Positions 54,554 through 58,171 of a stretch of DNA of 64,000 nucleotides are shown here, in pieces. Origin of the DNA: Trichocoleus sp. FACHB-46 (GTDB lineage: Bacteria; Cyanobacteriota; Cyanobacteriia; FACHB-46); NCBI RefSeq assembly GCF_014695385.1, contig NZ_JACJOD010000013.1:372001-436000 (forward strand), given 5' to 3'. Under the pieces are notes generated by a model. The model was not told where the DNA came from. It did no database searches and saw only the letters and a list, made by a program, of their open reading frames with translations. Numbering within the stretch: position 1 is the first letter of the stretch; the number at the start of each line of letters is the position of its first letter. A program made the translations under genes and the position numbers.

Positions 54554-56089
54554 TTATTGTGCCTGATCTGGGAAGGTGGTGGCTTCTACTGCTACAGCTT
54601 GTGGTTTGAGGAGTAGGGGCGATCGCTTCGGTATTCTCAAGGCGTTACTCAAACTCTGTGCGAGAGCTTGCACCGCCTGGCGAACTGAACGTGGACGTTG
54701 CTCCCGGACAAATAGCAAGGGCAAAATTGCCGCTAAGCGAATGACGCTAGAGAGGGCAAACAGCCCCAAGATGCCACCAGAGTTGGTGAACTCGATCAGA
54801 AATCCTCCTGCGGTCGTTCCTAAAGCTCCGCTGACTCCTGCTACAGCCCCGGCGATCGCGAAATAGGTAGCCTGATGCTGGACGGGTGCAACTCCTAGCT
54901 GAATGTTATTGATGCACAGATCGATCGCGGCCCAAGTACCTCCCGCCAGAATATGCAGTAGCGGAAACCAAACGAGTAGGGATGTTAAATCAGTCCCTGT
55001 CCCCAGCCACAGCAAGGGAGTAACCGCAACTAAAATGCCCACTAATACAAGGATCGGTCGATTCCCAATGCGATCGGCTAATCTGCCCCACAGCACCAGC
55101 ATGAGTAAATTAGCTCCCGCTCCCAGGCTCGTATAAGTAGTCACCCAATTGACATCTAAGGACAGGGTATCCAACAGATAAATGTTAAAAAAAGGAGCGC
55201 TTAAGTTGACTGAGAAACCCCACAAGGCAAAGTAGAGCAAGAACATCAAGAAGTTTCTGTCTTGCCAAAAGCTTTTACTCTTAGAAGGCTCAGCTGCTGC
55301 AACTGCATCCAAATCAGCAGATTCCTGGGCCAATGAGTCAGCATGTTCTTGTTGCTGCGCTTGAGGATTGACATCCACCATCCAGTACTGAAACCCAATG
55401 CTCACCAAGCCAACAATCACGCCCAAGAATAGCAACACCCCATACCCTTGGATGCTACCTCCTGGCCAAGCCGTCACCGCCAGCCCCACCAAAGGGACAC
55501 TAAGCAGGTTAGTCAAGCTAATGGCACTATTGCGAATACCAAAATAGCGTCCCCGTAGTTGTCGAGGTACTAGCGCTGCCACCCAACTGAACCAAGAGGC
55601 TCCCCCCAAAGCTCCTAAGAAATGAGTCAGCACAACGATCGCCAAAGCCCATTGCACTAAAAGATGGGGAGGAGTTGGCTGAAGACTGGCGACTCCAATG
55701 CCAAGGACCAGAATCAACCAGAGCAATCTAGCCGGAGCATAAATCCACAAACCGTAGCGGTGGCGGCTGGTAGTGCGGTTGGCTAAGTAAGCTCCCAAAG
55801 GTTGCAGCAGATTGGCTAGCAGTGGAATTGAGGCCAACATCCCTAGCTCTACAGGACTGGCATCCAGCTCCACCAAGAAGTTGCTGAGTAAAACCCCACC
55901 TGCCACATTCGAGAAGATGGTCGCAAAAACACCATCTAGGGTAGAGGCTCTGAGGCTAGTCCGAATTGCTTGCTTAGAAGGTTTGCGAGAGATCGTTATA
56001 GATTCCGGATCGGCAACCGGATCTAAAATCCCAGATACAGGAACCGCTGCCACCTCAACAGTTGTCAAATCCACTGCTTGTCTCAGCAT
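54554..56089 (-). CDS. major facilitator superfamily transporter
   Basis: 511 residues with twelve predicted membrane segments, a ~45-residue hydrophilic N-terminus and a central acidic loop (EHADSLAQESADLDAVAAAEPSKSK). MFS signature-like turns are seen (PRQLRGRYFGIRNSAISLTN; WGRLADRIGNRPILVLVG). It resembles cyanobacterial inner-membrane MFS proteins of unknown substrate; no drug- or sugar-specific motif is recognised. Shares the strand with moaA; its start is ~210 nt from the STAS gene's end. Alternative starts inside the first 20 residues cannot be excluded. Confidence 0.88.
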   Translation of the reverse strand: MLRQAVDLTTVEVAAVPVSGILDPVADPESITISRKPSKQAIRTSLRASTLDGVFATIFSNVAGGVLLSNFLVELDASPVELGMLASIPLLANLLQPLGAYLANRTTSRHRYGLWIYAPARLLWLILVLGIGVASLQPTPPHLLVQWALAIVVLTHFLGALGGASWFSWVAALVPRQLRGRYFGIRNSAISLTNLLSVPLVGLAVTAWPGGSIQGYGVLLFLGVIVGLVSIGFQYWMVDVNPQAQQQEHADSLAQESADLDAVAAAEPSKSKSFWQDRNFLMFLLYFALWGFSVNLSAPFFNIYLLDTLSLDVNWVTTYTSLGAGANLLMLVLWGRLADRIGNRPILVLVGILVAVTPLLWLGTGTDLTSLLVWFPLLHILAGGTWAAIDLCINNIQLGVAPVQHQATYFAIAGAVAGVSGALGTTAGGFLIEFTNSGGILGLFALSSVIRLAAILPLLFVREQRPRSVRQAVQALAQSLSNALRIPKRSPLLLKPQAVAVEATTFPDQAQ

Positions 56090-56302
56090 GCTGAAGCTAG
56101 AAATCTTGATTTGTTAAATATTTTTACTAAGTTTGTAAGCGCAATACCATCAGCCTGTGGTTAAGGCTGCTCAATTCTTTTGACAGTATTTTGGGCGATC
56201 GCCCCTAAACACCATCCAGGCGAAAGATATCTTGCTCAAAGTATTGGAATAATTCCTAAACCTCTCAGCCGCTTGCCCAAAGGTTTTAGGCTGTACGCGG
56301 TC

Positions 56303-56851
56303 CTAAGCAGTCTGCTGCGTTCGCATTTCTAGGTCAGTACTGCCAGCTACATAACTCATGCGTCGTGGAACAGGGATGTTTACCGGGATTTTAGCCGCCG
56401 CTTGAGCCGCTACTGCTTGAGCTGCCACTGATTGCTTCCGAGCCCAACTGTTGGTACGCAAAAACAGCTCAAATTCCTGCTTGCACAAGTCGCTCCAAGT
56501 TCCTAAAGTCGCGGCACGCTGACGACCCCACTCCGTTTCCAAGGCCACCCGCGTCACCCGGCTCATGGACCAGATAGATAGAGATTTGTTCAAGCTCGTC
56601 GCCAGCTTAATTCCTGCTAACAGGACGCTCACTCCTGCTGGCTCTACTGCCTCTACATGCAACAAATCTACAATCACTGCACTCGCTGCCCCTGCCAGTG
56701 CCTGCTCTAGCTCCTGTTGAAATCCTGGACTACTAGCCGTGTTTAAACAACCCTGCGGTTGCAGCACAACAGTAGGAGTCGTAGCCTCCTCTTCTACGCC
56801 GATCGCATCGGAGTTAAGAGTATTCGTAGTCGAGTTTATGACGGTTTTCAT
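56303..56851 (-). CDS. STAS-domain protein lacking the usual phospho-serine
   Basis: 182 residues. Residues ~28-125 have the STAS (anti-sigma-factor antagonist) pattern: VVLQPQGCLNTASSPGFQQELEQALAGAASAVIVDLLHVEAVEPAGVSVLLAGIKLATSLNKSLSIWSM. In SpoIIAA-type proteins the loop reads D-S-S-G; here it is Glu70-Pro71-Ala72-Gly73, so no serine can be phosphorylated at that site. A C-terminal tail with AVAAQA repeats and RRMSYVAGS is not part of STAS. No kinase or sigma factor gene is adjacent. The role is probably protein binding in a switch without the classic phosphorylation, or a decayed regulator. An unusual leader precedes it (see separate entry). Confidence 0.82.
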   Translation of the reverse strand: MKTVINSTTNTLNSDAIGVEEEATTPTVVLQPQGCLNTASSPGFQQELEQALAGAASAVIVDLLHVEAVEPAGVSVLLAGIKLATSLNKSLSIWSMSRVTRVALETEWGRQRAATLGTWSDLCKQEFELFLRTNSWARKQSVAAQAVAAQAAAKIPVNIPVPRRMSYVAGSTDLEMRTQQTA

Positions 56852-56909
56852 TGGGGTCTCCAGGAAACGTCACAAGAGAGGCGGCATTGAGGCTGGACGT
56901 TGAAACCCC
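56852..56909 (-). promoter_or_regulatory. structured leader that can mask the STAS gene ribosome binding site
   Basis: On the minus strand, GGGGTTTC (56909-56902) pairs with GAGACCCC (56860-56853), one G-U; inside, AACGTC (56901-56896) pairs with GACGTT (56871-56866). The right arm contains the GGAG that serves as Shine-Dalgarno sequence directly before ATG 56851, so folding would block translation. Confidence 0.5.
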
Positions 56910-57043
56910 AACTGCCAGAGGACAGACTCCTCCATATCCAATCTGAACCTAAAATTCTTATAAAGAAACTGTGATCAATCACTTACTTTTCGTGATTTTT
57001 GTCACAAAAGTATATTCACGGAGTTGGCCCGAGGATTTTTTAC

Positions 57044-58171
57044 TTGACCGAATTACGAGCTGGATACACGCTGCCTGTCTTTGCTGCCGCTGCCGCGATC
57101 GCTGCCTTACGATGGCTCCGCCAAGGCCCCCAAAGCATCTCTTCCGTTGACCTAGATTTAGTCGAGCCTGCTGAAACGGTGACAATTCCCATTGCCCAGG
57201 TGGCTGGACTCACGTCCAACTCGGCTCTAGCGATCGCCCACAGCGACCCTGGCGATAACTTAGACCTGACTCGCGATACCCCTATTTGGGCTTTAGTCGA
57301 GTGGGGCGCTGTAGACCAGCCAGAGGTAGTAGTGATTCAAGGTGGGGAAGGTGTGGGACGACAGATTAAGGCTGAAAACCAAGAGAATCAGGCAGCGATC
57401 TATGCCTATGCTCAGCGGCTTTTGCACACTAACTTGGAGCGGCAGTTAACTCTAGGCGAAAAAATTCGAGTCACCATTATTCTGCCAGGGGGACGAGCTT
57501 TAGCAGAGCGTACTTCTAACGCAGCCTTTGGAGTCGTAGAAGGATTATCTCTCCTTGGCACTACAGGTATTTCTCAGCCTTTGAGTGCCCCTGGACAACT
57601 CAAAGCATTTAGCGAAGCGCTACACACCAAGCAATCTTATTTCGATGGCTTGGTCTTCTGCGTGGGAGAGAACGGGCTAGACTTAGCCACTCAGATAGGT
57701 ATCAACCCGAATCGTTTGGTTAAAACTGCGAACTGGCTCGGTCCTATGTTGGTCGAAGCAGGCTTAGCAGGAGTACAAGCGGTTCTGTTATTTGGCTATC
57801 ACGGCAAATTAATTAAGTTGGCTGGCGGCATCTTTCACACTCATCACCATGTCGCTGACGGGCGCTTGGAAATCTTGACTGCTCACTGTGCGAACCTAGG
57901 ACTACCGAGCGAAACCCTACCCACCGTCTTTGCCAGTTCTACAGCTGAAGCTGCTTTAAACTACTTGCGATCGCTCGACACCAGCTCTGGCACTAATTGG
58001 GTGCCACAAGTTTATGGGGCGATCGCCCAACAAATTGATCAGCGCTGCCAAGCCTACATCTACACCCATAGCGAGCGCACTGTTCAAGTTGGCTCAATTT
58101 TGTTCGATCGCGATCGCCACATTTTAGTGCGAAGCGAAATCGCGCAGAAATTATTGTCCCAAGTCTGTTAA
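57044..58171 (+). CDS. cbiD: cobalt-precorrin-5B C1-methyltransferase CbiD
   Basis: 375 residues from TTG 57044 (GAGGA at 57031-57035, 8 nt upstream); the frame opens at another TTG at 56999 that has no such site. CbiD methylates C-1 of cobalt-precorrin-5B in the anaerobic-type cobalamin pathway. Visible: LRAGYTLPVFAAAAAIAALRWL near the start, GLDLATQIGINPNRLVKTANWLGPMLVEA and the family's FGYHGKLIKLAGGIFHTHHHVADGRLEILTAHC. No other cob/cbi gene is in the window. It is divergent from the STAS gene across a ~190 nt region. Confidence 0.93.
   Translation: MTELRAGYTLPVFAAAAAIAALRWLRQGPQSISSVDLDLVEPAETVTIPIAQVAGLTSNSALAIAHSDPGDNLDLTRDTPIWALVEWGAVDQPEVVVIQGGEGVGRQIKAENQENQAAIYAYAQRLLHTNLERQLTLGEKIRVTIILPGGRALAERTSNAAFGVVEGLSLLGTTGISQPLSAPGQLKAFSEALHTKQSYFDGLVFCVGENGLDLATQIGINPNRLVKTANWLGPMLVEAGLAGVQAVLLFGYHGKLIKLAGGIFHTHHHVADGRLEILTAHCANLGLPSETLPTVFASSTAEAALNYLRSLDTSSGTNWVPQVYGAIAQQIDQRCQAYIYTHSERTVQVGSILFDRDRHILVRSEIAQKLLSQVC

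Follow-up and report, generated by a model that had tools for sequence, protein, structure and literature searches.

A STAS-domain protein without the usual phospho-serine, encoded divergently from cbiD in Trichocoleus behind a leader that may damp its translation

The gene, its neighbours and its relatives

The window analysed here is the whole 64,000-nt stretch of Trichocoleus sp. FACHB-46 DNA. The gene under study encodes a protein made up of a STAS domain only; an MFS transporter gene lies downstream of it, and a cbiD gene faces it across the intergenic region (Table 1). Membership in the STAS domain family is supported by a PF01740 score of 26.9 bits, above the cut-off of 22.6. The score against PF13466 (STAS_2) is 28.6 bits, slightly below the cut-off of 29.2, and that against TIGR00377, the NCBIfam model of anti-sigma antagonists, is 24.2 bits, far under the cut-off of 53.45, which leaves the protein outside that family. 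Single-sequence structure prediction returned a mean pLDDT of 39.9 and was unusable. On the other side of the intergenic region, a GAGG begins 13 nt upstream of the TTG at 57044 that we read as the cbiD start. The mechanically delimited cbiD ORF opens further upstream, at 56999, and overlaps the CRP-like palindrome between the genes.

Table 1. Features of the STAS gene, its leader and its surroundings (positions in the window)
Feature	Position	Strand	Remarks
MFS transporter gene	54554-56089		downstream of STAS gene; profile match
STAS-domain-only ORF	56303-56851	-	182 aa, ATG start, loop E-P-A-G replacing D-S-S-G; ORF list, Pfam, orthologue comparison
Competing hairpin C	56836-56875	-	TTGTGACGTTTC with GAAAACCGTCATAA; Shine-Dalgarno region and first codons
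Right outer arm	56850-56860	-	GAGACCCCAAT; invariant in three species
Shine-Dalgarno GGAG	56858-56861	-	6 nt before ATG
Right inner arm	56866-56871	-	GACGTT; GGCGTT in both sisters, pair kept as U-G
Upstream frame, ATG to TGA	56870-56935	-	21 codons and stop, in phase with STAS ORF
Competing hairpin A	56883-56916	-	GGCA-TTGGGGTT with AGCCTCAA-TGCC; reuses left outer arm
Left inner arm	56896-56901	-	AACGTC
Left outer arm	56902-56912	-	GTTGGGGTTTC; invariant in three species
Possible -10 TATAAG (guess)	56957-56962	-	within stretch invariant in three species
Palindrome	56971-56982	-	GTGATTGATCAC; arms invariant, one central base varies in three species
CRP-like palindrome	56991-57006	-	TGTGACAAAAATCACG; between STAS gene and cbiD; arms invariant in three species
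cbiD	57044-58171	+	divergent neighbour; TTG start inferred from the sequence itself; profile match

A search for relatives with the single protein as query gave no confirmed relative. Relatives at E up to 1e-12 were found in 32 of the 388 genomes of the class; named relatives include the cyanobacteria Leptolyngbya sp. FACHB-321, Tildeniella nuda, Phormidesmis priestleyi and Stenomitos frigidus. Three genomes were available in the order, those of the window's species and its two sisters (G001 and G002), and covariation is countable on these three species only. The distant set comprises 27 loci obtained by an alignment-based profile scan, the best at 52% identity. The divergent arrangement extends well into this set: cbiD adjoins the STAS gene divergently in 17 of the 27 distant loci (L026-L052), and a partial cbiD match lies 1.3 kb from the STAS gene in one more (L044). 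These counts were made with the cbiD start set 3 nt too far in and on loci spanning only 1.5 kb on each side, so that a missing cbiD there does not amount to its absence. A narrow keyword search of the literature for the STAS domain together with cbiD found nothing.

The phospho-site in orthologues and paralogues

The first-pass annotation had read the canonical D-S-S-G loop as E-P-A-G in this protein, and hence as devoid of the phosphorylated serine. Alignment of a profile of 19 orthologues with the sequence of TM1442 (1sbo) confirmed this reading, placing E-P-A-G on D-S-A-G. We then asked what residue occupies the position in 30 of the 33 places where relatives occur, namely those with extracted loci. 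Serine is found in four orthologues and is absent in 26, the position being taken by A in seven, Q in four, P and D in three each, T and E in two each, and L, R, I, N and V in one each; P and Q are the residues of the two sister species. The 6.56 Mb genome holds 13 STAS places, the window gene included, and the other 12 carry serine in ten cases, threonine in one and proline in one. Judged by these alignments, the missing serine is a trait of the orthologue group and not a peculiarity of the window gene, and the comparison shows a group that does not depend on the phospho-serine of RsbV and SpoIIAA. An exact-phrase search of the literature for a STAS domain that 'lacks the phosphorylatable serine' returned no paper.

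A search for a partner anti-sigma gene elsewhere in the genome had been suggested along with the loop. Twelve matches to HATPase_c_2 exceed the cut-off elsewhere in the genome, some of them near other STAS genes (on contigs C6, C30 and C32), but none adjoins the window gene. The neighbours of that gene are MFS and cbiD, and no kinase gene was found among ten chosen neighbouring ORFs of nine related loci, which include MFS, moaA-type, guaA-type and PspA genes. An unlinked anti-sigma kinase partner for the STAS protein is possible.

Fold and conservation of the leader

The leader had been described as folding into nested stems of 8 and 6 bp whose right arm contains the Shine-Dalgarno sequence. 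Both arm pairs exist, the inner one with the 6 bp described (AACGTC/GACGTT), but the outer stem is longer and pairs over 11 bp, two of them G-U. The right outer arm covers the GAG of GGAG and the AU of the start codon, while the first G of GGAG is bulged in that fold. The consensus fold of the three leaders (-24.2 kcal/mol) places the whole Shine-Dalgarno sequence in a UCCAG/CUGGA stem. Of the 25 usable distant orthologues, 17 carry a GGAG, GAGG or AGGA at a distance of 4-16 nt upstream of the start chosen for them. Full sequestration of GGAG might nevertheless have a limited effect, because Cyanobacteria are named in an excerpt of PMC5397173 among the phyla with a small fraction of Shine-Dalgarno genes; structure at the start codon could matter more. 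A known Rfam leader family was considered and rejected: the covariance models of Rfam 15, run on 56000-58000 with E values up to 1 allowed, hit nothing in the leader. The scan yielded one match under the gathering score, an S-element at 57829-57880.

An outer stem scoring at least as high (24.6) is reached at 68 of 14,178 positions sampled on both strands of the window, and dinucleotide shuffling of the leader produces one in 32 of 5,000 cases. With such frequencies of 0.5-0.6%, the stem is unusual at a given site but not beyond chance for a genome as a whole; a rate of 0.5% would give, we infer, tens of comparable stems among several thousand genes. Among 38 ATG-initiated ORFs of 150 aa or more in the window, the STAS leader ties for first place with a 154-aa ORF (5719-5255, minus strand) that sits inside a 484-aa ORF of the opposite strand. 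The folding energy had been proposed earlier as a check. The 74-nt segment has the lowest energy among 40 gene starts of the window, but the z-scores are modest, -1.34 for 121 nt and -1.59 for 74 nt (13 of 200 shuffles as good); in the two sisters the 74-nt piece reaches -2.36 and -2.35. The distant leaders were searched for contiguous stems only, with starts taken as the first in-frame ATG and a few set by hand; 25 of the 27 rows were usable, L040 having no recognizable start and L049 being placed out of frame. None of the 25 holds a stem of such strength, the best comparable one scoring at most 18.8, but folding energies among distant leaders reach -20.7 kcal/mol (L042), and other kinds of structure may occur there. 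As far as the available genomes show, the stem is restricted to the genus.

This distribution bears on the central proposal of the first-pass annotation, that regulation has shifted from phosphorylation to translation. The proposal drew on the occurrence of a missing serine and a foldable leader in one gene, but the serine is missing family-wide (in 26 of 30 orthologues), and the stem is seen only in the three genus genomes and, at comparable strength, in none of the 25 usable distant leaders. Because the two features differ in distribution, the causal link between them fails and was rejected; we consider it very unlikely that control by phosphorylation was replaced by translational control through this leader.

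The hairpin covering the start competes with two others, A and C. Hairpin A has a predicted energy of -14.3 kcal/mol in the window's species and -10.9 in the sisters, and hairpin C one of -12.0 and -11.4, respectively. Taken together, A and C reach -26.3 kcal/mol versus -21.5 for the covering hairpin in the window's species, and -22.3 versus -24.4 in the sisters. The covering stem prevails in each of the three species when only the 74-nt segment is folded, with mean pair probabilities of 0.85-0.98. In longer RNA (90-120 nt upstream, 30-90 nt of ORF) its mean pair probability is 0.016, 0.085 and 0.0 in the window's species, 0.59-0.80 in G002 and 0.82-0.86 in G001. When the transcript is grown from -100, the left arm of the sisters swaps its partner with the position of the 3' end, and at +20 it pairs upstream in both. 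The Shine-Dalgarno sequence is partly paired in either fold, and the start region, folded within 150 nt of sequence, has a mean pairing of 0.45, a value that is not high among 40 starts.

Two further roles have been weighed against these predictions. The leader could be a bistable switch that controls a STAS protein acting without phosphorylation. Its conserved left arm would choose between the ribosome binding site (off) and local pairing (hairpins A and C) under the influence of a ligand, a small RNA, a protein or upstream translation, and a small number of substitutions within and near the loop, including one that makes the TGA of the upstream frame, would have moved the balance between the sister species. 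We think this unlikely. Control by temperature, also suggested earlier, is met by only a gradual predicted loosening between 15 and 70 °C: between 15 and 50 °C Shine-Dalgarno pairing drops by no more than 0.13, and at 70 °C it still amounts to 0.50-0.78 in the contexts tested. An RNA thermometer is disfavoured by this prediction, even if a hairpin of similar general type covers the ribosome binding site of cyanobacterial hsp17 (according to the available portion of PMC4477652), and the STAS gene is not a heat-shock gene; we regard a thermometer as extremely improbable.

The region upstream of the gene is more conserved than the gene itself. Over the 156 bases before the ATG, identity with G001 and G002 is 94% and 93%, and over the STAS protein it is 72% and 73%. 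In the three-way synteny alignment, invariant columns make up a fraction of 0.93 in the 60-nt leader, 0.88 in the opening 60 nt of the ORF and 0.72 in the remainder. The STAS gene combines the lowest body value with the largest leader excess among 15 of the 16 genes compared, a comparison in which the gene labels other than cbiD and MFS come from reading the translations and the cbiD start lies 3 nt too far in. Among 415 overlapping 60-nt segments that lie entirely between genes, 39 equal the leader in conservation, and eight of these fall in the STAS/cbiD intergenic region. Within that region the stem does not stand out significantly, with 33 of 34 columns invariant versus 144 of 163 for other intergenic columns (Fisher p 0.10). 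Pairing of the arms is preserved throughout the three species (51 of 51 cells): 16 of the 17 pairs are invariant, and one shows a one-sided change, U-A here and U-G in the sisters. Compensatory changes in relatives, whose lack the first-pass annotation would have taken as a refutation, number zero in 17 pairs, a count with almost no power on three near-identical leaders; covariation neither supports nor refutes the fold. The first 20 nt of the STAS ORF (56832-56851) are also invariant in the three species despite the fast-evolving body of the protein.

Conservation of the intergenic region could also stem from transcriptional signals. A scan with a sigma-70 promoter pattern found no site. The TGTGACAAAAATCACG palindrome fits the cyanobacterial CRP consensus TGTGAN6TCACA, as quoted in an excerpt of PMC2633013, except for its last base, and a 41-nt pattern spanning both palindromes occurs once in each of the three genus genomes. 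Shorter patterns, composed after inspection of the sequence, were sought upstream of 24 distant orthologues (leaving out the 3 genus members, L040, L042 and L049): GTGAN4T[ACT]AC is present in six, GTGAN6TCAC in three and TGTGAN6TCAC in one, with shuffle means of 0.24, 0.09 and 0.04, respectively. The two palindromes may control both divergent genes, STAS and cbiD.

Such operators underlie a rival account, in which the hairpin has no function: its conservation would come from two divergent promoters with palindromic operators, and its 11-bp stem would be a chance product of the kind expected in about 0.5% of genes. The frequency of the stem among sampled positions and shuffles agrees with this account, as do the conservation of the whole region from the cbiD start to the ATG, not of the arms in particular, the genus-wide invariance of the palindrome arms with similar sites upstream of some distant orthologues, and the failure of the stem to emerge as the predicted fold in longer RNA of the window's species. 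It accounts less readily for arms that remain fully paired in three species while about 28% of the columns of the ORF body vary, and for the sole change within the arms, which keeps its pair. We hold a functionless hairpin to be quite possible, if short of probable.

One further feature of the leader is the upstream frame, whose ATG at 56935 is conserved in the three species. Its TGA (56872-56870) is TGG in both sisters, where the frame continues into the STAS ORF; the annotated start may therefore differ between species. The codons that change in the upstream frame do so non-synonymously in six cases and synonymously in none; in the STAS ORF, the first 60 nt hold 4 codons changed non-synonymously and 2 synonymously, and nt 61-546 hold 46 and 49, respectively. 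Because all six changes are non-synonymous, the leader looks conserved as nucleotide sequence and not as protein, and the upstream frame probably has no conserved coding role. The same counts led us to reject the idea that the leader encodes a conserved N-terminal extension. Translational coupling is a related alternative: ribosomes would start at 56935, stop at the TGA, open the hairpin and re-initiate at 56851, and the sisters would make an N-terminally extended protein. The kept ATG, the shared phase and the TGA-to-TGG difference speak for coupling, but no properly spaced Shine-Dalgarno sequence can be read before the ATG at 56935, the codon changes point the other way, and the distant orthologues align from the methionine of 56851, 17 of the 25 usable ones with a Shine-Dalgarno-like element at their start. 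Coupling is, in our judgement, distinctly unlikely. We take the leader to be untranslated and the TGA/TGG difference to be a passing change.

Interpretation and comparison with known systems

The explanation that we prefer overall, tentatively and with slightly less than even confidence, is that of a STAS-only protein encoded divergently from cbiD, independent of the phospho-serine, whose leader hairpin serves as a translation damper. The mRNA would probably start about 100 nt upstream of the ATG. Folding predictions suggest that the leader hairpin can take up the Shine-Dalgarno sequence and the start codon, which would lower translation. The left arm may instead pair locally, which would bring the leader close to bistability, the covering form being computed as the favoured one in the two sisters and the alternative in the window's species. 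The simplest function of such a hairpin would be that of a damper setting a low level of STAS protein, opened by trailing ribosomes or by a factor in trans. Most likely, the gene is vertically inherited, STAS-only and divergent from cbiD, and its product is translated at a low or conditional level through the conserved promoter-leader, which may damp its translation.

If the leader works in this manner, the locus would offer translation-level control of a STAS protein without the usual phospho-switch, and alongside it a cbiD-linked STAS lineage without a conserved phospho-site that would be worth separating from the anti-sigma antagonists in annotation. At present, the main message of the locus is that the absence of the serine and the fold of the leader are distributed differently.

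Several known STAS proteins resemble the window protein in part. The PDB entry 7ch8_K, listed as 'STAS domain-containing protein', matches the orthologue profile; we take it to be part of an Mla complex, and MlaB to be a subunit of the STAS_2 type. The window protein approaches MlaB-like subunits in its STAS_2 score (28.6 versus 29.2 bits), but its gene is not located beside an MlaE gene, the single MlaE match of the genome lying on another contig. With the antagonists SpoIIAA and RsbV it has in common the STAS domain and the single-domain architecture; it differs from them in having no serine at the phosphorylated position, no adjoining kinase gene and a score far below the TIGR00377 cut-off. 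A cyanobacterial example of the phosphorylated kind is Ssr1600 of Synechocystis, in which S59/S60 are phosphorylated by Slr1861, as reported in an excerpt of PMC12329169. SypA, BtrV and HmpV are STAS-only like the window protein and illustrate that the target may not be an anti-sigma factor, but the portion of PMC8256260 available describes them as having a kinase partner or a serine that is conserved or phosphorylated, and the window protein has no serine there. At the RNA level, the closest likeness is to the cyanobacterial hsp17 thermometer as portrayed in the same portion of PMC4477652, where a hairpin likewise covers the ribosome binding site and the start codon; the STAS leader departs from it by lacking a predicted sharp melting and by having a competing alternative fold.
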